This document shows positions 476-41,489 of a stretch of DNA of 64,000 bases, piece after piece. The stretch comes from Telopea speciosissima (taxonomy: Eukaryota > Streptophyta > Magnoliopsida > Proteales > Proteaceae). Each line of letters opens with the position of its first letter. The first letter of the stretch is position 1. The stretch is taken from positions 11,111,563-11,175,562 of the forward strand of contig NC_057922.1 in the NCBI RefSeq assembly GCF_018873765.1. Direction: 5' to 3'. The translations under genes and the position numbers were made by a program. The notes under the pieces were generated by a model that was not told the origin of the DNA, searched no databases, and saw only the letters and a list, made by a program, of their open reading frames with translations.

Positions 476-493
476 CAGATTTCAACTTAATTC

Positions 494-3400
494 ATGGAGA
501 CTTCTCTACGGTTTCAGCAGGAAAAAGATGGGGAAGATCACAAGTCCTGCAGTTACAAGCTGGTTCCATGGTTAAGTTGGGATGAATGGAACTTCGTCAG
601 AGAATCTCTATTATCGTCTTCTCCAGACTCGATTGCCGCGGCTCTTAGAAGAGTAATGCACAAAACCCTAAATTAAGAAAAGACATAATTTTGAATTTGA
701 ATTCTGAACACTAATTTGTGTGTGGTTTCAGATATACACGTGGCGAAGCAGAGGTTGTCTTCCCGTTGTGATTGATGTGACGGCCTCTATACTTGAAATT
801 CAGCAGAAAGATCCTTTTTTTGGGTGCCCATCTTCTATTATATCTAATTCTCTGTTCTTCTAATTTTCATGGTAACTATAATGTTGGTTTGTTACTCTTT
901 TTCTATGTATCTTTATGCTCTCTTTTATTATCGTGAAAACAGCACGAATGAAAAGTTTGGATAGTCATTGTGGATACAATTGGCATTATCAACATTTGTT
1001 TGAATTTTCTGGCGTTCTTTCTTACAACAAATATGGGTTTTTTTTTTAATAATCTTCTAGATATGTCTTTGGGTGATGATGGGAGTGTTTAATGCTTTTA
1101 TAAAGAAAAAATAATTCTTTACCTAACGTGATGATGATAGTCCTAATTGGTTGCTGCCTGATTGCTTTTTTTCATCTGTGTCTGGTTGGTTGCAGGGAGG
1201 GTCACACTAATGATGCTTTAGAATCAGAGGAAATGCTTGCTATGCTATATTGCATGGCTATCATGAGGTTAGATATTTCTGGTGAAAATCATTCCTGAAT
1301 ACCTTTATGGGTGTTTTGTTACTTACATATGTACAATATTTTGTCTCTGAATTATTATCCTTACATGTCCTGATAAGGATGACATTGTCTATATTAATGA
1401 TGAACAAGTGATGAAATTGAAAAGTTTTATGACTTGAATAAAAATGTTAGAGCCTTACCAACAAGATACAGTTCAAAGCTGAATTTCGTACAATTTTTTG
1501 ATTTACTTGACTTTCACAATATGTTTGACGCTAATATGGTATTACTAGAATGACTGTTTTCCTATATATAGAGGTCACATTGACTATAATTGCCAGTTTG
1601 CTTGTATTAAGTATGCCTATGGGGATGGCCATATGTTATGATAATGAAGAACTTGAATACTCGATAGAAAGATTACACTTAGGCATATGCCCTCTTACGT
1701 GTCTTCCCCCCCCCCCCCCCCAAGGCTTGTGAATGGTGTCATTGAGAAAACACGTAAAAGAACAGAGGTTTCAATTGCTGAAGCAGCTGATGCACTTGGT
1801 ATACCAAGTATGCTTATCGACATTCGCCATGGTCAGTAGATGTACTTATGTACTTTTTCTTATACTTTCTCACTCCAAGTGTGTGTGTGTGTGTGTTTTG
1901 GGTTTTCGATGATTTTTCATTACCTTGGCCTGAGTGCTACTACTATTGATATATTCTTTGATTTCATTTGAATTTTTGTAGAGGGTTCTCATCGTGATCT
2001 CCCCTCACTTCAGCTGGTTCGTCTTGCCTCTATGAAGGTTAACCATGTTATTTGGTGTTCAGTTCTATTTGCTTGAGTTTTTTCTACTTCTTTATATTTG
2101 TGCCTACTACGAAGAAGTAAGTTGCAAACCACTGAACATCTCTGTGATGCACTATCACAGACATACTTAAAGTCCAAAAGCAGTGTTTTTAAAATTAAGT
2201 CAGAGGCTCCTTAAACTTCAGTCTCTCTCTAGTCCTTGTTTGAACTTTTGAGAGGCTTATTAGCAAGGACAGAGTTCTGCTTTGCATCTACTTAGTTTGT
2301 GTCAGAGTGTGAGAGTGAGTAGGAGTTATTTTATGAGTCCGTTAAGGAAACATGGTGACTTGTGATGGCTCCCTTCCTAGGTGATTGTTTTTCTCTTCTA
2401 TTTCTTCTTCTAGTCTGGTTCCTCCATAGCTTGGTGATATCTTTCCACGAATTTTGTTCTTATTCCTCTTCTCTTGATGTTATGATATTATTTTTCTTCT
2501 TCTCTGGCCCAAAATCGATACTATAGTTCTGGTATTTCTTGCTGTTTATTATATCTAAACTGCAAATCTGAGTTTCTAAGGTCTGCTAGAATTAGGGCTG
2601 CAACAGGGTCGGGTTGGGCCGGGCTTTATAGAACCCTAGCCCAACCCTAAGTCCCCTTAGCTGGGCCCAGGCCCGACCCGACCCTGACTCAGGGCCAGAA
2701 AAATTCAACCCTGACCCGCCCTCAGGGTCGGGTCGGGCCGACCCTAATTGGCCCTGATCATGGGGAGGGGGAAAGAAATGCATGGGTTGGAATGGGCTGG
2801 GAAAAACATTATTAATTTTACATAAAATAGCAATATAATAAATTATATTATAACACTTATTGTCTTCATATATAATATATTATATAAAGAAATGTGAGTG
2901 AAATTTAAAGTTTATAATGTATAAATTTTGTCAATATATATTTTATAGTATAACTTAAATTAGGGTTGGGCCGGGCCGGGCCGGGCCGGGCCAAGCTTAG
3001 CTCGAGGCCTCAACCCTAACCCGACCCGACCCTAACTCAGGGCCAGAAATTTCTAGCCCTGACCCGCCCTCAGGGCCAAATATCTCAGCCCAAACCCTGT
3101 TCGGGCTCAGGGCGGGCCAGGGCGGGTTCGGGCCAACAGGGCCAAACTTGCACCCCTAGCTAGAATCATTCTAGATCAGAATCTGAGGTATGATCATCTA
3201 TATGTCTTATTTTCTTAGATCTTGAATCTAGCTTGAAAACCCTATTGATGGAGTCTTGGTACGTATCGTGATTGGCCATGTTGATACAATACAGTACAGA
3301 TCCATTAAAAAATTTATGTATGAACCTGTGTCGAACTGATACGGACTGATTCACTCAATACACAGGCTGCCAAAACACAAAAATCCTAGTTTTTGAAAGA

Positions 3401-6400
3401 AAATTTCTTCCTAATCTGATTTTTTGGTTAAAACCTAAGTGGATTCCATATACACAAAAACTACCTAGGAAGAGTGATTAAACAAGCAAAAATTTGCACT
3501 AACCAATGAATATTTGTGTCACATATATTTTTCTTTTTCAAATCTTCTTGCTTCATTGCTTCTTAATACTTATTAGTAGGTTTGATATTGCTCTTGCCAA
3601 TGAAGATTTGAATCACATTAATGCCGCAAGCCAGCTTTCCGATATGCTGCCCAATACCAATTCTTGACATCTGGGCTTCATCTAATTTAGACCTCCATTT
3701 TCAAGACCAATATATCTTGTCATAGCTCTCAATTGTTACTACACTTAACCTGAATTTCTGGCTGATCTGACCATTGGATTGAAAGATATCTAATTTTCTC
3801 TTATTGCTATCCCTTCAGTCCCTGCTCTCTTCTACCGATTCTCTCAAAGATCCTGGTTATAATCTTTGTTCTTGCTTCTCGATTCTTTCTAGAACCCTTA
3901 ACGGCATGAGCTTGGAGCTAATGAGATAAGATTTTAGGTTGGGCTGTTGATGGGGTTTATAACTTATATTGTCCAAGATACTTTTTACGATGATATAACT
4001 TGTGATCAGAAAATACTCATTAGGATTGATGTTGACGGCAACATGATTATGAGTATATATTTATAAGTCTATATTGTCCAAGATCCTTATATGATGATAG
4101 ATAACATGATTATGATTATAGGTCTTGAAATCTTGCAAATTAACACAAGTACCTCCTATCATTCAAGACCTTTTTTGAATCCTTGAGAATGGCATACCTC
4201 CAAGATTGAAGTTCAGTTTCGATTAGGATTTCGACCCTGGTCGAAATCGAAATATACTGTTGAAATCTGTGAAATGGGCTCGAATTTGATCCATTTCACA
4301 ATTCAACTCGAAATGGCCATTTCAGTGGCCAAAGGATGGAATTTTTTCCTGAAACTTCTTGTAATGCCAATTTAAGCATGTTTACACATGTTTGATCATT
4401 AGATTGGAAAAACCTCTCAAGTGGTAGTTTGGCTTTGTAGCCGAGGTTACTAGTGTAAGTTGTAGCTGAATGTATTCTTTCCCTTATACTGTGTTTGTTG
4501 AATCTCTAGATTAGCTTTTTACCTAAGGAAATAGGATGCCCATAGGTATGGGGCCACCTCTTTTCTTTATTATCTCAACAATTTGTCTTAAATGCTTTCA
4601 TAAACTCTTTAAGTTCTCAGATTTTTCTATGTTGTGGAGTAAGGTAACTTAATATCACTATTAATGTAGATTCTTTTATCTTGACAATTTCAGGCACTTG
4701 ATTGGTTGCAATCTTTTTATTGGGAACCTCAAAAAAGGGTAATTCCATTTCAAAAGGATGGGGTTGGTAATATTAGAAAAGAGATCATGTTTCGACTGCG
4801 TGACTGTATCTTTATTCGAAAGACTAGGCAGTCTCTGCATTCAATCAAGGGGAAACGTGAGTATCGAAGGTTTTCTTTATAAAGTTTAAGCTGTAAATAT
4901 ATACCGAGAGTTATTTTCTATATATCTTGTTATAACCATGGTATAAAATCTCGCGAAATTTCGGCGATATATCGCCACATTTCGTATATCTCGACATGTC
5001 CGAGATACGGAACACATCCGAAACCAAAAAATACAATATCTCGTCGATATATCGTGAGATATCGACGAAATATCGTGGATCTCACGATATATCGCGAGAT
5101 ATTGAAAAAGTGACAAATAGTGTGACACTAGGGGCCATTTTATACCATATTTCGCAGCTCTTGGTCGATATTTCGACCGAGAGCTGCTGAAACTCTATTT
5201 TTCTCTCTTTTTCTTCATTTTTTGCTCTTCTTCCTCCCTTCCAAGCCTCATCCAAGCATTGTTGAAGCTCCTTGTCGCCGGGAAGACGTCGGAGGGTCAT
5301 CGAAGCTCATCATCCAAGCCTATTTTCATTATTTAAGGTAAATTCTATTTCTCTAAAACTATTTTTTTAAAAAATACTTTGTACAAATGTTGTTGGATGT
5401 TGATGATATTAATATATGTTAGACGCCGGAGGCCGATCTACAGCCTCACGGTGTCGAAATTTTTTTCCTATATGTATTTTTTTTTATTTTTTTCTGGTTT
5501 TAAAAATTCATTTTCCTACAACTAAAATAGGAAATAATTAGGGGTAATATGACTTAGATGGTAATGAATTAAATATATGTTAGACACCAATGGCCAATCT
5601 ACGGCTTCACAGTGTAGGATTTATTTTTCTGCTCTTAAATAATTATTTTAATTTTCGGAAATTAAGAAAAATATATAAAAAATTAAAAAACAGAAATAAA
5701 TAAGGAAAAATATGAGTTTTAAGTTTAAAAAATAATGAAAAAATATGAAAGTTATTTCTATATGTTTTGAGATGCATTACATGTATATTATGTTTACTAA
5801 TTTTTGGTTTTGTTGTGTTAGGTCAATACTTATATTAACATTATATATAAAAAATTGGTTTTAATTATGTGAAAAATATAAGGGTTAGGGAAAAAATATT
5901 AAATAACTATACAAGTGTATTAGTAATCTAAAAGTGTCAATTGAAGTGCATCTACATTAAGTTTTTTAATTATTTGTGGTACTTACATTGCAGTAAACAA
6001 GTATCATTATGGCGGATCGTGATAAACAACGTGCGAAGGGCAAGCAAAAGGTGGGGGAAAGTAGTCAACAAAGGGGGCGGAGGGAACAAAGAGAACAGAG
6101 GGAACAAGAGAGACCAGCCACCCGGCCAAGCATAGGGTGACATTGCATGGTTACATGGTACTCCCATTGATGGGGATAAGAGAAAATCTATATGTAACTA
6201 TTGTCACATGCAATTTATAGGAGGTGGGTCCAGTAGATTTACACAACATCTGACTAGAGGATCTAAAGATGTTGTAGGTTGTCATATGGTCCCTACTGAA
6301 GTAGCCAGGGAGATTGGTGATAGTTTGAGGGGAAGAAAGAAGAGGAAGGCTGACAAGCAAAGGATAAGAGAACAACTTGAGGATACAGTGAGGAGTTCGA

Positions 6401-9400
6401 TGGGAGGAGGAAGACGATACAATGATGATGATGATGATGATGATGACTCCTCGATGGTGATGACATTGCGATGCACGATGACATACAAAAGCAGAGGAGG
6501 CTAGGGATTTTAGGCGGATTGTTTAGGAGTAGAGTAAGTTTTCAAGATGATCAGCAGAGACAAAGAGTAGGGGGTAGTGGAGGAGCGGGCAGTTGGAGGT
6601 CCTAGAACTTTGAATCCTTTTAAAAGATCACAAAGTGTGAGGGCAGCCCCAACACCTCTCGCGATGCAGTCACCATCAACATCGATCCTAAATTGCATAA
6701 GAAGAAAGGAAGCGTTAACCCGAATCAAAGGAGCATGGAAGGGGATGAAGGGATTGGTTAAAGAATTAATAGCTAAGTGGATGCTATACCATACCATCCC
6801 AAAGAAACACTGCACAAGGCCCCCATTATGATACCATGATAGATACCATTGCAGAGGCTGGCCCAGGATTCAAGGGTCCCACCCTATATGAGGTAATGAA
6901 TGTTTATCTACCTCAACAAAAGAGTGAGATTGATGAGTACATTAGTGAGATGAGGAATATGTGGGAGACATATGGGGTGACTATAATGGCGAGATGGATG
7001 GGTGGGCCTACAAGAAAGTCCATCATCAATTTCATGGTTTATTGTAATGGGAGGGACGCAGTGTTCCTCAAATCGTGGATGCATCCAAAAAGATAAAGGA
7101 TGCAAAATATATTTACAGATTGTTAAAGGAAGTAGTGGAAAAAGATGTGGGTATTGAGAATGTTGTCTAGATTGTAACGGACAATGGAAGTAACTTCAAG
7201 CTGGCCGGTGAGAAGATGATGAACAATAGTAAGTACTGGCTCTTCTGGACTCCTTGTGCAGCCCATTGCATTGACTTAATGCTAAAAGATATGGGAAAGT
7301 TAAAGTTGGTGAAGACTGTGGTTGAAAGTGCAAGACAAGTCACCAACTTTGTATACAATCACTCCTATGCACTCAATCTATTGAGGAAAAAATGTGGGGG
7401 TGACTTGGTTAGGCCTGACATCACAAGATTTGCCACCAACTACATTGCCCTCAAAAGCATTAAGACAAAGAAGGCCGGGCTAAGAAGCATGTTTGCTTCT
7501 GAGGAGTAGTTTGAATGGAAGGGTTTCAAGACTGCAAATGGGAGGGAAGCACAAGCAACGATGTCATCTGAGGACTTCTGGACCAAACTAAGCAAAGTGG
7601 TGAAAGTTTTGGAGCCAGTAGTTAAAGTTCTACATGTTGCTGACTCCGCTCTGAAGGGCCCAACCATGCCAGTCCTATATGCTGCAATAGACTTGATGAA
7701 AGATAGTGTCTATAGTGTGGCTCCTCGCGATAGCAAACACTTCTTAGATATCATAAATGCTCATTGGGAGAATTAACTTATGCATCCACTGCATAAGGTG
7801 GTGAGTAAATTTGTTTTATGTTTACTAATTCATAGTATTATTATTTACTAATTACCTATGCATTTGACAATACCTCTATTCTATGTGTCATATTTCAGCA
7901 TACTACTTGAACCCTAAGTATCAATATAACAATAGGCTTGGGTTGGAAACTCAACTTATTGATCTTTGTGAAACAAGTAGAGAAGAAGTTGGAGCGGATG
8001 GTGCGCTACAAGCAATTTGCAACAATGAGGTGAGTTCATTTGGAAACTCAACTTATTGATGCTTTTAAATAAGTAGTGAAGAAGTACTTACTAATTTTTC
8101 ACATGGGTATAGATCAAGGTATTTAGGGATGCATTGGGAAGTTTTGGAACCGAGGTCGCGATCTGAGGCGAGCACGTGGTGATCTTGGTAATTCTTTTAA
8201 GTTTTAAATTACATATGTATTGAAATTTGAAAGTTGAAAGTTGAAACAACATTTGACACATGTCTTTTTGTTGTAAACTTGTAATGCAATTGAATGGTGG
8301 GTGTTGTATGGGAATCGTGAAAACTTAAGAAGAATAGCAATTAAAATCCTTGCCCAAACATGTTACGCATCTGGTTGTGAGAAGAACTGAGTACCTTTGC
8401 ACTCATCCACTCCAAGAGGCGCAAGCAGATTGGGGTCTCAACGTTTATCCGACATGGTGTATGTGCTACAACTTGAGGTGAAACTCGCAACACATACGCA
8501 TGGGCATGAGGGACAGAGGGGCACCATTGATCTAGCCGACATCTTTCAAGTTGACTCGGGCGATGAGGACCCTATTGTGGATTGGGTGAGGGATAGAGGT
8601 GAGCCGGTGTTGGATGAGGAGGGAGGTAGGCCCGACCCCATGATACCGAGATTGGTCGATGTGGGCGAGTATATGGGCGACGAGGGTCGGATACATGCGA
8701 GGAAGCCTCACCCATACTATTCCAGCCCATTGGTGGCAATGTTGCTAATGATGAAGACTGGTCTAAGTCCTCAAATGATGATGATGGTGATGATGATGAT
8801 GCTGGTGGTGGTGATGGTGATGCTGGTGGTGGTAATGCTGGTGGTGGTGATGTTGGTGGTGGTGATGCTGGTGAAGAATTTGATGGCATGCGAGAGCGTT
8901 ATGTCGTAGGCCAGGAGGCCCAGGATACGGCACCTGTAGAGCCACTCCGATTCACTGGAGAGACACAGTTTGATCATGCCACACAAGATACGGACCACGG
9001 AGCACATGCCCCGCACCCCCACCCTCAAGAGGCCCCCTACATACATACAACAGGAAGCGTAGGGGTCGACAAACACAGTTGCAACCTGATCACATGGACA
9101 TTGATAACCTATCTAGCTCTGTTGGTGGTTTGAGTATGGGTGATAGGGAGGGAGGACCGACTGGACATTGGCGTGCCCCATTTTTTGACGCATATACCAC
9201 TCCATTGGCATCGGATTATGGTGCATCACAACCTTACGGTGGATATGGATATGGATCATCATTATATGGGCAGTTTAGTGGGGTAGGGGACTATGACTAC
9301 GACCCTCCAGGACACATCTTGGATCATCTTTCGTAGATAACATCTTTGCATACCCTAGCGGACCTAGCTACCAACCTCACCACCATACATGCGGCCAATG

Positions 9401-12400
9401 CCATCGCCTCTTGCGCGGCGCCAACATCATATCACGGTGGATCATCTTCTTCACGGACTGGATCGATTGGTAACCCTAGTTTATATCCTAGGATAGGTTA
9501 CCTACAGTATGTTGATGATTCCATTTACGTGACACTTGTGGATGACTACACTCGTTTCTTCTCTGATTCTATACCGTGGTCCACATATGTCCTTCAAACA
9601 GAGAGCAATGGACGTCGACTCTAGCGAGGCATAAGTGGGATTGATCCAAGGAGGCACAACAACTACTATTAGCAGTTTAGCACTTATAATTTGTAACTTA
9701 AGTTGTGATTTCATTGATCTATGAACTTGTGAGTTGTGACTTGTGAGTTGCGAGTCTTGTGACTTACTAACTTTGACACTTAGTGTATCGCCTTTAAGGC
9801 TTTAAGCGAGTTATTGAATATTATGGAGTTTATGAGAATCATGGTACTCATCAATGTGTATTGGTTTTAACTTGATATGTGATGAAGTTAAATACTATTA
9901 TTAAATATTAGAGTAAATTACTCCCCCCTCCCCTCGATTATGCTCTAATGACAAACCCCTCCCCTGGGTTTTGAGTAATGACTCTCCCCTCCCCGCATTC
10001 CCAAGATTCTATCAACCGTACCCATTCCGTTAAAAGGAGTATTAAGTGATGACATCATCTTAAATATATTCAATAAAACCCCAAAATGCCCATATATTTG
10101 TGATATTCCAATAATTCCCTCTAACCATATCAAAACCCTAAAAACATCTCTAGGAAACGCCGCCGCCACCACGGCGTATCCACCACCACTTTCACTTCCG
10201 TAGCCACCGCCACCATGAAAGAACCTTGCATAGGGTTAGGAAACGTCGGGCGTTGTTAATGAGAATGCCAACATCCGGACCTTCAATGGCTTCCCGACCG
10301 ACGTATCTCCTCGGAAGGTCACCGGAGAAATAAACCACCACATTCTTGATCCGGTGTTCCTAACGAAGAAGAATTATGGTGAATTTGGACAAACAGAAGA
10401 GACCCAGAAAAGATAAGAAAGAAGAAACGATTAAGATCGTCCGAGTGGAGGTGAAGTGAAGTGAGGAAGATGGGTTTCATTTTTGGGAGTCTTGGAAAGG
10501 GAGTGGGTCACGGTGATGAGGTGAACGAGGAAGATAGTTTAAGTCACTCCAATCACAATCTGGAAGCTAAGCCCTACTTTATGTTACTCCAATATCATAA
10601 CTCTCTCTCTCTCTTCCTTCGCAACCAGCGATTGAATTGCCTCTTTAATTAAGGATTCCGTTTCAGTATAATCTTGGTTTCGTTTGATATTCCACTAGTC
10701 TACTTCAAGGCTACTTCTTCAATTCTGATTTTTCTGAATCTGGTTTCAGTCATTGCTTTAATTGCACATATTATTGTTTAATCACTAGATCATTGTTTTG
10801 AGCCCTTAAATCACTGCTACCAATTTCTGTTTTCCATCCGGGTTTTCAAGTTTCCTAACTCCAACAGGAAACCTCAATATGTCTCAAATCAGCCACTGCA
10901 TTGTAATCAAATTTTACTCTCCATATTATCCCCGGCATAGACCGTATCGACCAGGTTCAGCCCCAACCAGAGTTGTTCCGACTATCAACTTTCTCTAATC
11001 TGGTTCTAATTCCTAACCCGTGGTTCCGGAATTCTTCTATGCTGCCCTATGAAAGAGAATTCCATCTATAAAGACTACAGAGTGATCTCGCAATTGAGGA
11101 ATAAATAAGAAAAAAAAGACCCTATAAAGAATCTAACGGGTTTGTTCGAATTAGATAGGATTTGTTGAGATTAGTAAAGATTTGACAAGAAACAGAGACG
11201 ATAACATAAAATCCTCAATGGACATCGAAAGTAGGAAGAGGAGAGACGATGAGTTATGGATCGGTAGTGTTCCTTTTAAATGGGTAGGGATGATCAATTT
11301 ATAATGAAAATTGATTTTATATCTTCTATTTTTGAATCAACCGATTGGGGGCAAAGTTGCGAGACGAGTTGCAGGAGGAAGAAGAAGAAGGGGTCGAGGG
11401 TAATATAGTCTTTCTATAACACTTAACAGCCCTTTTAACGGAATGGGTACAGTTGATAGAATCTAAGGAAGAGGGAGGGAGAGTCATTACCCAAAACCCG
11501 GGGAGGGGTTTGTCATTAGAGCATAATCGAGGGGAGGGGGAGTAATTTACTCTAAATATTAACTGCCTAATCTATGTGTATTTAACTATTTATACATTAG
11601 GGTCGGCGACCGTATGTCAATCAAGGGTGCAAGCCCAAAACACCAATTTGAATTCACATTTTTACAATTTTATGGTTTAAATGTGTTTATTAAGCTTAAA
11701 TAAGGCTGACCATGAAGTTTTAGGCTTAGATATGGCCAAATACCCCCCGAGATGGACCCTCGAAATATTGCAGAAAAAATGCAATATTTCGGTCATATTT
11801 TGCGATATTTCGGGTATCTCGGATATCTCGGTAGGCCCGAGATACCGAAATATTAAACCTTGGTTATAACTATATGATAATATCCTTACTTTATGGCTAA
11901 TGTGTCTTTCTTCCTCTCCCTCTTGTGCATGCATATAATTGTGTTACTCTTGATCGAGTATGGTGAAAAACAGTGAAGTAATGAGATGAAAAACCGAAGA
12001 GGGGTGTAAAAGAATTCAAATATTATGGAACTTCAGCTTCATTTTTTATAGGAGATTATTGCTGCTTGGAAAAGTAGATTCGATTATTTTTTGATAAGCA
12101 AATAGATTTGTTTATCTTATGCTTTGCTTTGTATTACCCAAATTTGGCATGCAAAGATATTTTATTATACCTTGTACATATTTCTTAACTATTGTTTGTT
12201 GAAAATTGCCATCTTGCTACAACTGGCACCAGTATATTAGATTTGAGTTAGTGTTACCCATGTTGACTACATAAGAAATCTTATATATACTTTTATTATA
12301 TGATTTTAAAACGTATACCACCATTATCAAAACAAATAAACAATACAAAGTTGAAAGTGAAACATGCAAGCTCTTATATTTTCTCTCATTTTTGGTTATT

Positions 12401-15400: not shown

Positions 15401-18400
15401 CATAGTGCATGCTAATGTAAAGCATAGGCAATCCTCCAACATGGGCATCCCTGTGGTGCCAACCTATGGCTGATGCCTAGTACTTTCCCATGTCCCCAAG
15501 CATCCCCTTCTGGTCGGGGAAATTCTGGACACCCCTCCAAGTGACCTTAAGTCCATCCCAAGTCCATTTTAGATGATTCCCACAAATGGCGAATAGAGAG
15601 CCACATGATGGGAGGCTGGGGTCTAAACACACACACACACACCTATCCTTAGGAGGGTTTTGTGCCTTTGTTGTTTTATTTCAAATGGAAATGCTGAGGG
15701 CACCATCCCTTAAAAGCAGTCTGCAAAAGTACCTGTGCTATTTTGGAATCAAGGGCAACTAAAAGAAGCTCTAAGGCTGCCTTATATGTGTTATATTTGT
15801 CTTGATTCCAAAAAAAGTGGGTGTTCCCTTAGCTTCACTGTATTTTAAACGAAAGCAGTAACCTGCTTGGAAATTATACTAGGCTTTTTGGGGCAAAAAA
15901 CACCAGATGAGCTCTCTGAACCAGTGTTCTCCTTATGATTTCAAGTTTCTACGTATGCATCCAAAACTGGCACTCAATGGAATCTCACATCTTTCTTTTC
16001 TGGCCTCACATCATCTGTGGGCGACCATGGTGATCCAGAATGGCACTTAGTATTGCAGCATGGTGCCACAGGCCACTGGATAGGTTGGACATCCATACAA
16101 GGTTGGAACATTCTCAAATTACAAGGACCGGTCATACAATATGCCCATGACTCCACACAGCCTTGACCACAGTCAATGCTGCAGCTTATGCGAAAGATCC
16201 TCATCTGTGTGTATTGAAGTGTCCAAGGTCCCAGAGTTGTTGATGTAGAACTATTCCCAACACTCCCTGTCATTTGTTGCCCCTCTTTTGGGTGGCAGTA
16301 CATGTGGCACGTGTGGTCCCTCTTTTAGGTGGGCCATACACAAGTTTATTGTTATTGTGATGGGCCTGGTGGGTCTGATTCTGTTGAATTATCCAACCCA
16401 AAAGCTTATGCTATTAGGTAGAGAGGCCCAATTGGTATGTAAGTCCACTAGGGACCCAGAGCTAGTTGATGTGGGATTATTCCCTGCAATCCCGTCACTG
16501 TGTTACCACTCTTTTGGATGACGGTATACATGGGCATGTGTGGCCCCTATTTTGGGTTGCTGTACATGGATGTATCACTATCATAATGAGCCTGGTGGCT
16601 CTGATACCATATTGAAGTGTCCAAGGTCCCAGAGTTAGTTGATGTGGGACTATTCCCAATAGTGTATGTGTTTCCACATCATGTCCACCATAAACATTTC
16701 TAGCTTTTGTCGTCTAGTTTCCTTAATTGCTGATGGATGTAGAATCTGATTTCAGGTCCTAAAAGACAGATTTCCAAGATTCTGCAAAATCTTGTTCAGT
16801 TATATTCTTTGTTCCCCTCAGAAGTAGTTTCGGTGTTATTGGAGTTCCTACTGAAGGTATCAGATTCCTCTCATCATTTGCTAGCGGACTACTTTTCTGC
16901 GAATTCAAAAATCCTCACAGGCACAATTGATGACTGGAAGTACGTAATAATGCGGCTGTCAAGTAAGGAACCAGAATTGCTGCTCACCATTCTCAAGGCA
17001 GTTCTTGAAATAATCAAGACTCAGGAAGCTATGAAATCTGAAATTGGTAAATTTTCTACTCCTTACTTGGGTATTAGTGTGTTTACCTCGAGAATTATGC
17101 AGGTTTATGTGGGATTGACCTTTTATGGGGATGTCTCTAAAGTGTTGTGAGAAACAGGAGTTTTTGAGATTGTTCATTAAGGATTCTTGGACATGTTGGT
17201 CACTGTGACAATATGATTGACATCGTCTCTCCAAAGCGACGTTTTACCACTCACATATTTTTTTTGCCTGACATATCAAGTGATTGAAGTTCAAGCCAAA
17301 TTCACTTCTTAATCATAAAAGATTTAAATTTCTCTCGTCTGGTTTTTAACCTTCTATTGTTCATGAATTGGTTATTGAATAATAGGAAATCATATGATGT
17401 CTGCATACAGCTTTGTCAAGTTACGTTTGCTTAAAAAAAATAAAAATAGAAATGGTTTATTTTATGGCTGGTCCATGTTTGTAGTCCAATACAAACAACT
17501 GCGTATTTTGACACTGTTTCACTTTCTCTTCCCTAGGTTTCCCATTATATTCCTCTGCTCTTTCCTTTAGGAGCTTGATTCATGAGAACAGTTGCATCTT
17601 TTTTATGTGCTATAGGTATTACGTTATCCTTAAATCAATGATAGTCCTTGTTCAAGTTGGGCATGAAATGCAGTGGCTCGGACCTGAGATCTAAATCAAT
17701 CCATTTCTAATCTAACCAGGTTAAGTCAGACTTATTGTTGAAATTTGTTCTGGAGCTGGTTTGGATAATTTAGATTATGATCTTGGAAACTTGACATAAA
17801 TTATTCCCCCACCCTCACCCTCCACCCCCTAAAAGATGAAATGGGGGAAAAAGAAAGAGAGATCCAATGTTTTTGGATTTTTCCCCCTAATCCATTTTGA
17901 TGTGGAGTTGGATATAGATACACAGGAAGTGGATCCAAGTTGTGGATAAACTAACGCATGTTGGATCTGGATACGGGTTTGCTCAGATCTTGTAATGATA
18001 TCTCTTTTGGATTCATGCTGTTGCTCAAGTAAACATTTTTATAAAACCTACATTCTGGCTCTTTTTGGTTATTTTTTTTCATGTTTCTATGGCAGGACAT
18101 CACTGCATATCATCAAAGCATAAGGCTGAGATTCTTCAATTTGAACATCTTTCGTCACTTGTTCCATGGCTCCTTGTGAATCTTAACGAAGTAAAACAAC
18201 ATAGACACACAGGATGTTTGGCTGAAACCAATGTTTCTGTGGTAGAAACAAATGTTATATCAAGAGCAACTTTAAAAGAACTCCTACGGAAATGTCTTTT
18301 AATAATAGCTCTGGGCAACAAACGACTCACTGGTTCTACACTGCTTCTTGCCCAAATGACAGGAAACAGTTCTCTGGTAGATAGGCTCAAGAAACTGGCT

Positions 18401-18984
18401 GCAGTTAGCCTTCCAGATCATGATATTACCATTGACAGCTCTTCGGGTATCAGTATTGGAGACACCCTTCTCGAACAGGAGAATTACATAAAACAGGCAG
18501 CGGAAAAGTTGGAGTCTCTTAAACGGCATCTGATGAAGGGTGAAATGGTCAATATAGTGCCAACAAGATGAGGGAACAGAGAAAAACATGTGGTCTGTAG
18601 CCAAGTCATGGAACCCATGCCCAATTGGTATGTTGCCTCGTGCTCTAGGTTCTTCAGGCATTCTTCCTATTCTTGACAGAACAGTTGACCACCCAAAGGT
18701 ACACCATCAAAAGGTTGAAGAATTCTCTGAGGCTAATGAGCACTGGGAGCTGAATCATTATTGTGGAAAGAGAGAAGCGACTGCGACTTCTGATATTGAT
18801 GATTTTGGAGGGCTCAACTGCCACTAAGAAATGGAGGGAAACAGCAGATGGTGGTCTCTTGGACAGTTGGGATGGTTCATCACTGAAAGCCGACGAAGGT
18901 CTACTGATGATTGGTGGGATTTGGAAGAAGGTTGCAACCCAGGAATTGCTAGCCATTGGATCTGCTGTAAGGATTTTGGTATGA
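494..18984 (+). CDS. LAS1: LAS1-like pre-rRNA processing endonuclease (HEPN family)
   Basis: Las1 is the HEPN endoribonuclease that, with the Grc3/NOL9 kinase, cuts ITS2 during 60S ribosome maturation in the nucleus. Coding exons read from the sequence: 494-652, 732-823, 1196-1267, 1725-1831, 1982-2037, 4694-4856, 14619-14702, 16756-17046 and 18096-18984, with GT-AG borders and phases that join. The N-terminus has the family motif YKLVPWLSWDEW. The HEPN catalytic motif RHEGSH is encoded across the exon 4/5 junction. The C-terminus has WSVAKSWNPCPIGMLPRALG and GGIWKKV...ELLAI...AVRILV, typical of plant LAS1. The predicted protein is about 637 residues. The gene is oddly long (18.5 kb) because introns 5 and 6 carry transposons. 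In exon 9 the reading frame shifts twice, near 18545-18570 and near 18800-18815 (an apparent extra G in TTTTGGAGGG). This is either sequence error or real decay of the C-terminus; codons in all three frames still look conserved. Identity is firm, intactness is not. Confidence 0.93.
1706..1721 (+). other. 16-C tract at the LAS1 exon 4 splice acceptor
   Basis: A run of 16 cytosines is followed directly by AAG and then by coding exon 4 at 1725. It occupies the place of the polypyrimidine tract, which in plant introns is normally U-rich. Length polymorphism here could affect exon 4 splicing, which supplies half of the catalytic motif. Confidence 0.85.
2593..3158. mobile_element. Non-autonomous hAT element, GC-rich, in LAS1 intron 5
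   Basis: The ends are TAGGGCTGCAA on the left and the complement of TAGGGGTGCAA on the right, flanked by identical 8-bp copies of GCTAGAAT at 2585-2592 and 3159-3166, the duplication size of hAT elements. The body is made of GGGCCGGG/CCCGACCC-type motifs at both ends with an AT-rich centre and no coding potential beyond chance. A related but diverged element lies at 31569-32250. Confidence 0.8.
3167..4693. other. Rest of LAS1 intron 5, no gene seen
   Basis: AT-rich intron sequence. Around 3195-3390 and 4210-4330 there are short degenerate inverted-repeat stretches of GTATCGTGATTGG and TTTCGACCCTGGTCGAAATC type, similar in style to the other short hAT-like repeats of this window, but I cannot define their ends. 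Nothing else is recognised. Confidence 0.5.
5411..5616 (+). repeat. Direct repeat in the hAT left arm
   Basis: Two copies of a roughly 45-base unit, at about 5411-5454 and 5572-5616, share ATATATGTTAGACRCC, GGCC, ATCTAC and CACRGTGT with a period near 161 bases. They lie between the left terminus and the transposase and may be subterminal binding repeats or a small local duplication. Confidence 0.6.
6150..8420 (+). pseudogene. hAT transposase remnant (BED finger, DUF659, hAT core and dimerisation region)
   Basis: Order of recognisable parts: a BED-type zinc finger near 6180-6290 (CNYC, then FTQHLTRG and a later Cys); a basic linker; a DUF659-like segment 6836-7100 with MIDTIAEAGPGFKGPT and EYISEMRNMWETYG; the core with IVTDNGSNFKLAG and CAAHCIDLMLKDMG near 7170-7310; a helical insertion with DITRFATNYIALKSI near 7420; and the C-terminal dimerisation region EWWVLYGN...IAIKILAQTCYASGCE at about 8286-8380. 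The reading is split over all three frames by several stops and frameshifts, and small introns may also interrupt it near 7800-8290, so no intact transposase is made. Order and spacing agree with plant hAT elements. Confidence 0.88.
8775..8872 (+). repeat. GGTGATGCT minisatellite inside the hAT remnant
   Basis: About 98 bases of GAT, GGT and GCTGGT triplet-based repeat with units such as GGTGGTGATGCT. It keeps an open frame in several phases and would have encoded an Asp/Gly/Ala-rich linker near the transposase C-terminus. Confidence 0.8.
9911..11552. mobile_element. Gene-capturing Mutator-like element (Pack-MULE type) nested in the hAT element
   Basis: The ends are GAGTAAATTACTCCCCC and its complement, extending into inverted arms of about 125 bases on each side (shared CATTAGAGCATAATCGAGG and AACGGAATGGGTAC motifs). 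Identical 9-bp copies of TAAATATTA flank it at 9902-9910 and 11553-11561; 9 bp is the hallmark duplication of Mutator-like elements. There is no transposase. The interior holds a KCR1-like gene fragment on the minus strand near 10215-10390, a leader-like stretch with CT repeats near 10600, and unidentified sequence to 11390. Because both arms and the duplication are well preserved, the insertion looks younger than the hAT host element. Confidence 0.8.
10215..10390 (-). pseudogene. Captured fragment of a KCR1-like very-long-chain 3-oxoacyl-CoA reductase gene
   Basis: On the minus strand the reading IKNVVVYFSGD, then EAIEGPDVGILINNA, matches the KCR1/Glossy8 short-chain dehydrogenase region IKTVVVDFSGD...IEGLDVGILINNAG around the NNAG motif of the Rossmann fold. 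Just beyond, in a shifted frame, PYARFFH follows, as in KCR proteins. Upstream, AACACC/GGATC corresponds to the residues before IK. Only about 50 codons of the roughly 320-codon gene are recognisable, and at least two indels break the frame. KCR makes cuticular wax and sphingolipid precursors in the ER; this copy cannot. The parent gene is not in the window. Confidence 0.75.
11871..14100. other. Rest of LAS1 intron 6 before the LINE tail, no gene seen
   Basis: AT-rich intron with a C11 tract at 12761-12771 beside repeated GGTGGGTGCT motifs. 13600-13800 has repeated AAATAGAAACTA motifs. The style of 13080-13990 suggests old retroelement DNA but I find no defining motif, so I leave it unassigned. 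Confidence 0.45.
14100..14307 (+). mobile_element. Probable 5'-truncated LINE 3' end with poly(A)
   Basis: The sequence TTTTGTGAGGGCTCTCGC, CTAGGGGGCTGTTGT and CATTTCAATAAATC runs into a pure A tract of about 18 bases at 14286-14303. An AATAAA-like signal followed by a genomic poly(A) is the signature of a plant L1-type LINE or a retrocopy 3' end. The 5' limit and target duplication are not clear. Confidence 0.4.
15143..15254. mobile_element. Miniature hAT-like element in LAS1 intron 7
   Basis: The termini are CATAGTTGTCATGGCG and the complement of CATAGTTGTCAAAGCG. The flanks CCTGAAAT and CTGGAAAT could be a diverged 8-bp duplication. The 112-bp body has no coding content. Confidence 0.6.
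15629..15642. repeat. (CA)n microsatellite
   Basis: A short pure CA run in LAS1 intron 7. Confidence 0.9.
16215..16675 (+). repeat. Degenerate direct repeats in LAS1 intron 7
   Basis: Three partial copies of a unit containing AAGTGTCCAAGGTCCCAGAG, GTTGATGTGGGACTATTCCC and a GTGTGGCCCCTCTTTTGGG block begin near 16217, 16440 and 16616. Copy spacing is uneven (about 220 and 175 bases). It may be a fragment of an old retroelement with internal repeats, but no ends or coding motifs are visible to fix its class. Confidence 0.6.
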
Positions 18985-39200: not shown

Positions 39201-39620
39201 CATACAGTTCATTAAAAAAAGAAAGATTAACTTGTTAAACCGGCCAATCAAACTAGTTAAACTTTAAAGTGGGATCAGGGTTAAAATAATCGGTGAATCA
39301 GATCGGAATATTCACCTCAAGATTCCCAAATTTTTCCCTTCCAGGCCGATTCTGGGGTTAATCGGTAGGGACTGATCCGTCACTGATTCCTGATTTCCTG
39401 ACCTTGTTGCAGCGCTAATAAAATTTTAGGGTAATTTACACATACCACCCCTGAGGTTTGACGAAAGGATGATTTTACCCCCCAATTTTGGAAAATTCTG
39501 CGTATCCCCCTGAGGTTTACAAACGGTAACAAATAAACCCATTCCGTCAGTCTATGCCTAACACTGTTAAAATCAAAAGGTAAAGTGACAAAAATGCCCT
39601 TTCAAGAAAAAAAAAAAAAA

Positions 39621-39667
39621 CCTGCAACTCATCTTCCCCAAATCGATTGGGGAAGATGAGTTGCAGG
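39621..39667. repeat. 47-bp palindrome at the inner edge of the left arm
   Basis: CCTGCAACTCATCTTCCCC is followed by AAATCGATT and then by its exact complement: a perfect 19-bp stem around a 9-base centre that is itself nearly symmetric. It directly abuts the captured PIG-T sequence. Confidence 0.9.
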
Positions 39668-39669
39668 CT

Positions 39670-40090
39670 ATAGATAGAAGGTCTGTCCATTAGAACAGCA
39701 AGCCCAGCTTTGTCTCGACAAGGGAGCAACTTCAACCAGGGAGTTAGGTTCTCAGTAAAAACAACCTCCCATGGCAGAGCACCATACCTAAGGGTACCCA
39801 AGAATGGTCGAAAGCTCCAATGTGGAGAAGCATAAGCAGTAGATGATTCCAAGAAGTTAATCGAAGCACAGAAGAGACCCGAGAAGGTGTGGGTCAAATT
39901 TTTCCAGGTTGAATCGACCTGATTAGGGGGACATCGAAGACGGCCCACAACTCAACTCCGGGAGGTTTCGCATTTGCGCTCGATACAGGATCAAATCCAC
40001 CCCATCATTCGTAGTTCTAGCGACCTTGCATGAATGACAACTCCATCTCACGAATCCGAAATTTTTTAACCTAATCAAAGCAGCATAAAA
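39670..40090 (-). pseudogene. Captured fragment of the GPI-transamidase subunit gene PIG-T
   Basis: On the minus strand, starting near 40090, the reading gives EMELSFMQGR, WGGFDPVSSANAKPPGVELW, AVFDVP, NQVDSTWKNLTHTFSGLFCA, SINFLESSTAYASP, LRYGALPWEVVFTENLTPWL and KLLPCRDKAGL...LMDRPSIY. This is the order of plant PIG-T (GPI16 homologue), the ER-membrane subunit that helps attach proteins to GPI anchors. About 140 contiguous codons are present without an intron, with two stops and one missing base (in the CCC of DVPP). The homology stops at 39670, three bases from the terminal-arm palindrome. The copy is non-functional, and the donor gene is not in the window. Confidence 0.85.
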
Positions 40091-40340
40091 TCCCATTATT
40101 TATTACTCTTTGAACTTAAACTGTAGTTTTGAAGACGGTAACAAATTTTATTTTATTTTTTGATAGAAAGACGGTAACAATTAACAAACCCTAGATTCTG
40201 AACAAAAATAAAGTTGATCATAGAGTTAATAGCAAAATCTAGAAACACATATACAAATGGGTTAAAACCTAAAGCAAATGGAAGAGGGAAAGGAAGGAGA
40301 GTGAATCAGGATCGGTTCCATGGTGTTCCCTACAAGGATA

Positions 40341-40388
40341 CCTGCAACTTATCTTCCCCAAATCGATTTGGGGAAGATGAGTTACAAG
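40341..40388. repeat. 48-bp palindrome at the inner edge of the right arm
   Basis: CCTGCAACTTATCTTCCCC, AAATCGATTT and a near-complement form the counterpart of 39621-39667, with two or three mismatches in the stem. Confidence 0.85.
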
Positions 40389-41489
40389 TTTTATTTTTTT
40401 TCTTGAAGGGGCATTTTTGTCACTTTACCTTTTGATTTTAACAGTATTAGTCATAATCTGATGGAATAGGTTTATTTGTTACCGTTTGTAAACCTCAGGG
40501 GTATGTAGAATTTTTCAAAACTGAGGGATAAAATCATCTTTTCGTCAAACTTTAGGGTGGTACGTGTAAATTACCTTTTTTTATTACCAAAAAAAATCAT
40601 GTTGGTGGAGTCAACCTGGTTAAGCCTCCAGATTGGATCAATCTCCGGTCCATGTGTTAGATGTCTTTTGTCCCCACGAGCCAAGATCATGGAAATGGCT
40701 AATGTACATAATCAATTTCGTGATTCCATAATCCAACACATCAGATTTTGTGATTGATGTTCATTGGACGGTCAGATGGTGCTGTTGATGCACATGGCAC
40801 TGTATAATATAATGCTTCGAATGTTTTCACCGACAGATGATCACATTCGCCAAGTTGTCGGTGGCGGAGGGGATCGAGGAATTGAGTGATCAGAAGGCTA
40901 AGAATGCACGCCCACTAAAGTGGAGGATGGTTGTTGTCGTCACTTTAGTACCTCCCGACATCGGACGTCACCCGATGCTTCCCTGCACAACAAAGCAAAG
41001 ACAGCCTGCGCGTGAAGATGACGGTGGTCACGTTACAACTCTTTGTGCCACGTCATTACGCTCTACACACTGAGATGGAATGTCCACGTTTGAGTGGGCC
41101 CGCACAGCGGGAAACTAAGGCTGTCTACATGACAAGTGTTACGGTGTCCATCTTCATATTGCAATGGCAGATATCATTATTATATTCCACCACTTCTGCT
41201 GATCTATGTCACTCATTCACTTATTCATTTAAATTTTGATCCTTTTCCTTTCATCAAATTTTTAGTCAAGGACAAAATTCTGCCTTAATTATTAAGCTGT
41301 ATAATTTTAATCTCAAAAATTTATTGATTATTTGAAATAAGTTCATTTATATTGGTTAAGAAAAAATTTTATGAACAAAATATTCATTTGATCAAGCGTC
41401 CGAATCTCTCTCACACATTCTATCAAACACCTTCCGTGGATCTTCAAAAAGGAGTGCTCATCATAACTGGACACATTTCTCTTATCTAT

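Follow-up and report, generated by a model that had tools for sequence, protein, structure and literature searches.

How did part of a reductase gene come to lie in a small transposon that is itself nested in another transposon, beside a LAS1-like gene of Telopea speciosissima? The window (the whole 64-kb stretch of DNA that was analysed, C7:11111563-11175562) holds the three layers, and genome-wide searches of the assembly covered 822,943,500 bases in 1287 contigs, including the chromosome-sized C1-C11. The answer is almost certainly that a non-autonomous Pack-MULE, here called family F1, picked up second-source DNA along with the 5' end of an SDR reductase gene, spread, and entered a hAT-type element beside exon 6 of the LAS1-like gene.

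The host gene and the outer element

Exons 1-6 of the LAS1-like gene occupy 493..4858 on the plus strand (~494-651, 734-813, 1197-1268, 1723-1832, 1982-2037 and 4693-4858, with approximate splice ends). Their joined translation matches the Las1 domain (Pfam PF04031, E=5.8e-44), and with this domain upstream of the insertion, the claim of a LAS1 gene at the site, made in an earlier sequence-only reading, is upheld. Scripted joining of the six exons at exact splice sites gave no solution. Exon 6 terminates at a GTGAGT donor, 70-80 bp upstream of the hAT element. The frames 16743-17147 and 17999-18568 of the window presumably resemble downstream LAS1 exons; in Pfam they gave a sub-threshold match to another family (E = 0.0019), and a PDB search with them yielded nothing convincing. 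By the upstream exon count, the insertion site would be LAS1 'intron 6'.

The outer element (4937..11862, plus strand), which is split by the Mutator-like element, is of the hAT type: it combines 8-bp target site duplications with a BED zinc finger (zf-BED at 6136-6501) and DUF659 (at 6773-7093 and 7171-7506). It begins with CATGGTATAAAAT on the left and terminates in TATTAAACCTTG on the right, and each of these ends recurs in at least 39 other copies genome-wide. The duplication GTTATAAC stands on both sides (4929..4936 and 11863..11870, plus strand), as had been proposed. Alone it is weak evidence, with three occurrences in the window against 1.04 expected; it is secured because other hAT copies show 8-bp duplications of their own. 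Eight other copies were fetched with both ends, and different exact 8-bp duplications were found by script in seven of them and by eye in the eighth. In its duplications, its domains and the many copies present here, the element is like the BED zinc finger and DUF659 type of the hAT superfamily; it departs from that type in that the window copy is decayed, with broken reading frames, and in that a scan of its frames found no C-terminal dimerisation domain.

The Pack-MULE family F1

The inner element, a Pack-MULE of 1642 bp (9911..11552), had been placed at these coordinates from the sequence alone, and they proved exact to the base. Its inverted arms (left 9911..10048 on the plus strand, ~138 bp; right 11420..11552 on the minus strand) are 90% alike, and the longest stop-to-stop frame overlapping it is 96 aa. 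It is flanked by the 9-bp target site duplication TAAATATTA (9902..9910 and 11553..11561, plus strand). With five occurrences of this 9-mer in the window and 2.0 expected, the repeat means little alone; the other F1 copies secure it. The 1211-bp interior gave 25 further near-full matches (89-97%) and partial ones among the best 40 of 109 candidates. Thirty related loci were sampled (L009-L038), of which 27 are complete at both ends; the incomplete L018, L035 and L038 were excluded from the duplication count. Exact 9-bp duplications flank 24 of the 27 complete copies (one being poly-A), and the remaining three have 8 of 9 bases. The arms and 9-bp flanks do therefore recur in other copies, a check that the sequence-only reading had called for. 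Genome-wide, the arm pattern has 278 matches with up to 3 mismatches, and its reversed control has 0. The common interior together with the distinct duplications shows that F1 spread after the capture. Four copies with large indels (L012, L033, L036 and L037) were left out of the element tree. Further insertions enlarge L012 (C8:52792155-52794699; 2545 bp) and L033 (2149 bp). At another locus, L062 (C2:54701000-54709000), two F1-related stretches, a left part and a right part, lie a few kb apart and possibly represent a split, nested or recombined F1 copy.

The link to Mutator comes from a transposase-bearing relative, L079 (C3:60002032-60008947). This 6.9-kb element is flanked by a perfect 9-bp duplication, and over 211 bp its F1-type ends are 90-91% alike; the similarity of the left end of F1 to it extends to ~10119. 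Three minus-strand open stretches of L079 carry the DBD_Tnp_Mut, MULE and SWIM domains. Since F1-like ends here surround MuDR-type transposase domains, F1 belongs to the Mutator superfamily and is a Pack-MULE, as the sequence-only reading had proposed, a class on which the inverted ends, the copies, the reductase cargo and the MuDR-type relative agree. The transposase region of L079, split as it is into three open stretches, may be dead or contain introns, and another transposase could have been the source of F1 mobility. Sugar-transporter pieces also lie within L079; thus, a transposase-bearing element is itself laden with host-like DNA.

Two other loci, L060 and L061, match L079 at 96-97% outside the transposase stretch. 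They were rejected as autonomous elements, almost the whole L079-type transposase stretch being absent from them. A GRF zinc-finger piece is present in L061, and L079 gave no Pfam match for such a piece. Transposase matches across the genome were scored for the best 150 of 827 candidates. The transposase at C3:34233825 was discarded as a partner of L061, as it is positioned outside that element.

Origin of the cargo

The parent gene of the cargo is L051 on C8. It encodes an SDR domain (Pfam adh_short, E = 3.5e-29), and PDB and NCBIfam searches return SDR enzymes in general; its motifs suggest that it may be a plant gene of the 3-ketoacyl-CoA reductase (KCR) type. All of the cargo is read on the minus strand. 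It starts with piece A (11039..11283), which comprises 5'UTR, the ATG and the first codons and corresponds to positions 4623-4865 of L051 (85% identity, with gaps). Between this piece and piece B sit ~500 bp from a second source, X (10538..11038; 79% to C7:25799199-25799789, with partial relatives on C8 and C9), and a segment of ~117 bp (10421..10537) without assigned origin, ~63-80 bp of which recur at 84-91% in at least 10 loci outside F1. Source X was searched for a gene identity and none was identified. Piece B (10359..10420, 62 bp) matches L051 4892-4953 at 94% DNA identity, and piece C (10214..10363, ~150 bp) matches L051 5143-5295 at 89%; both derive from exon 1. The translation of piece C reads KNVVV..DVGILINN..S*PYARFFH. 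At the junction of pieces B and C, 189 bp of the exon are deleted, with a TTGGG microhomology. A spliced transcript as the source was considered and rejected: the 189 bp absent between B and C are internal to exon 1 and bounded by TTGGG, and are not an intron. A last segment of 94 bp (10120..10213) is also without assigned origin. Outside F1, C8:15013542 is its best full-length match, at 77%; of the searched bases, the first 47 are found again in several loci at 91-94%.

The sequence-only reading had described the cargo as a minus-strand KCR1 fragment covering the NNAG region. Its reductase nature stands, with an SDR parent and 85-94% DNA identity, and NN(A/V)G is present; the description was too narrow, as the cargo also includes 5'UTR, a start codon, two exon-1 pieces and second-source DNA. 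The check suggested there was for a significant protein match; a tblastn comparison with the parent protein among the 27 F1 copies matched the window copy at E = 2e-7 and 4e-7 and its sister copies down to 4e-23, so that a significant match exists in the sister copies as well as in the DNA alignment. Taken alone, the window cargo had no Pfam match and a best PDB E of 0.25. The genome-wide protein search at E <= 0.001 gave 55 matches; many sister copies are in this set and the window copy is absent from it. The reductase match of the window copy is thus real but weak at the protein level. Elsewhere, four reductase-like first exons, 65-86% alike to L051, are clustered at C3:4871778-4901767.

A second capture of the same 5' end

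L052 (C2:42498514-42500212) and L053 (C8; 3472-5195 of L053) rank among the top protein-level matches of the parent. They were rejected as genuine reductase paralogues, since they match the parent over ~1006 bp only, from the 5'UTR into intron 1, and this segment is bounded by ~205-220-bp inverted repeats common to dozens of other loci. The ends of this second family (GGGTAATTTACACATACC...) differ from those of F1. The family holds a complete reductase exon 1 in open frame, and two such copies were found. Eight pairs of second-family ends were inspected for duplications: at least 8 of 9 bases match in five pairs by script (one of them poly-A and uninformative), a sixth pair, read by eye and shifted by one base, gives 9 of 9, and two show no match. 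A scripted search for exact duplications at L052 and L053 found none; L052 has a decayed left end, and 8 of 9 duplicated bases match by eye at the flanks of L053. A member of the same end family is also present in the window itself, at 39429-40576 (arms 39449-39652 and 40357-40557), and no clear 9-bp duplication was seen at its flanks.

A frame of 214 aa is open in both L052 and L053. Purifying selection on it was considered and rejected: a comparison of L052 with L053 gives a dN/dS of 0.99, against 0.144 between the parent and the C3 homologue. The changes assigned to the copies are 15 amino-acid-altering and 5 silent, those on the parent branch 0 and 3, respectively, with one further site each ambiguous or multiple. 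The open frames reflect youth, not use.

At least six further loci match only parent residues 9-107, at 61-63%. Two of these, L096 (C6:5073300-5074800, at 551-1133) and L097 (C8:58519300-58520800, at 525-1087), share a 583-bp unit, 91% alike, which contains an exon-1 piece of ~270 bp that is 72-73% like the parent. At least four more loci give protein match limits equal to those of L096 and L097. No inverted ends were detected around the unit within the 1.5 kb examined of each locus. By its sequence, this dispersed unit is a possible third capture, from the reductase gene or a relative.

Alternative explanations

Did the inner element really enter the hAT element, and does its cargo matter to the plant today? 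The hAT sequence is uninterrupted at the Pack-MULE site in all of the 11 best-ranked other hAT copies that were read, where TAAATATTA is present once (one of its bases is missing in L050). This shows that the Mutator-like element entered the hAT element, and the earlier proposal that the nesting gives relative ages holds. The opposite reading, in which the hAT element is the younger of the two and gene conversion or an assembly error produced the nesting, has practically no chance of being correct: we found nothing in its favour, the duplications are intact at both levels, and the private changes point the same way. The window hAT copy has 9 private changes in 611 sites (compared with 11 copies) and the window F1 copy 14 among ~1635 aligned sites (compared with 22 copies), counts that agree with a younger inner element but depend on sampling. 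They were not converted to years, because the two samples differ in the closeness of their nearest relatives. A present role for the captured fragment, as an expressed chimeric peptide or as an antisense or small RNA regulating the parent reductase gene, was also considered. Such a role is very improbable in our opinion, even though the pieces retain 85-94% DNA identity to the parent and many rice Pack-MULEs are described in PMC8277862 as transcribed and as possible sources of small RNAs. A TAA stop replaces a tyrosine codon in all 26 F1 copies that keep that piece (the 27th has lost it), and the window copy carries frameshifts. The variant states among the 26 copies are spread evenly over codon positions (13/18/15). 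The common stop and this even variation indicate that the cargo is a pseudogene, and it did not evolve as coding sequence during the spread. The dN/dS of 0.99 between the two open second-family copies counts in the same direction. All these points bear on protein coding, not on a role at the RNA level. An older, split F1 copy on C4 is without the TAA stop, which most likely arose, therefore, after the capture and before the main spread.

Besides the reading of F1 as a pseudogene carrier, it may be asked whether the reductase 5' end was captured only once and passed from one family to the other. Both families do hold the 5' end of this one gene, and the second-family segment begins just 16 bp downstream of the F1 capture start. 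Nevertheless, we regard a single capture as quite unlikely. F1 has those 16 bp of upstream parent sequence, which are absent from the second family, and the second family has two stretches of exon 1 (26 and 189 bp) that are missing from F1, together with the first part of intron 1. That each family keeps parent bases absent from the other argues against passage between them. In the tree of pieces, with L054 as outgroup, the parent and the second family cluster apart from F1 (support 0.867). Independent captures are thus preferred, and they raise the possibility that the reductase 5' end is a capture hotspot, used by two families, whose capture starts beside a TATA-like stretch differ by 16 bp, and perhaps by the third, diverged unit. 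We put this forward tentatively, as a suggestion that may well not hold. If it were true, capture would not be random: a fragile or open promoter/first-exon site would direct it. The young second-family copies would then serve as natural experiments for following the neutral decay of an open captured frame of 214 aa.

Proposed history and mechanism

Under the preferred history, F1 would have captured the 5' end of the SDR reductase gene together with second-source DNA and, with the cargo already assembled, would then have multiplied to at least 27 complete copies. One copy would have entered a hAT element already sited beside exon 6 of the LAS1-like gene. Most likely, F1 was mobilised in trans, through the common ends, by a MuDR-type transposase. 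The cargo was probably already broken when F1 spread, and it would have had no protein-coding role. The capture itself may have proceeded by template switching or by gap filling and repair, one internal junction showing microhomology. In PMC8277862, gap filling and template switching are discussed as a capture route for Pack-TIR elements. Judged from the sequence, such a route would suit both the two-source mosaic and the TTGGG microhomology.

Relation to known systems

The nested transposon described here is well supported but ordinary in kind; it is mildly surprising in that the 5' end of a single gene was captured more than once. The locus presents layered transposition with internal controls in one genome, namely uninterrupted sites, copies, the parent gene and a candidate transposase source. 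The double capture offers a small but direct handle on how and where Mutator-like elements acquire host DNA, which is an open question. There is also a warning for annotation, as the two apparent reductase paralogues L052 and L053 are transposon cargo.

The tomato PM-ZIBP family (PMC3310237) is like F1 in having long inverted ends and 9-11 bp duplications, a captured fragment with an identifiable parent, multiple copies after the capture and a size of 1-2 kb. F1 differs from it in plant and cargo, in having single and not tandem ends, and in its two-source cargo. Chimeric MULE-derived sequences of Oryza (PMC4858842) also have cargo from at least two sources. A preference for GC-rich sources is reported there, and the parent exon 1 is in line with it (GC 0.474 vs 0.385 for its 8-kb locus). 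In contrast to those chimeras, the F1 cargo is a common pseudogene with no sign of constraint. A search of the literature, with subscription papers mostly outside its scope, found no link of Pack-MULE to 3-ketoacyl-CoA reductase or to Macadamia. The combination of Pack-MULE and Proteaceae gave one match, the lotus genome.
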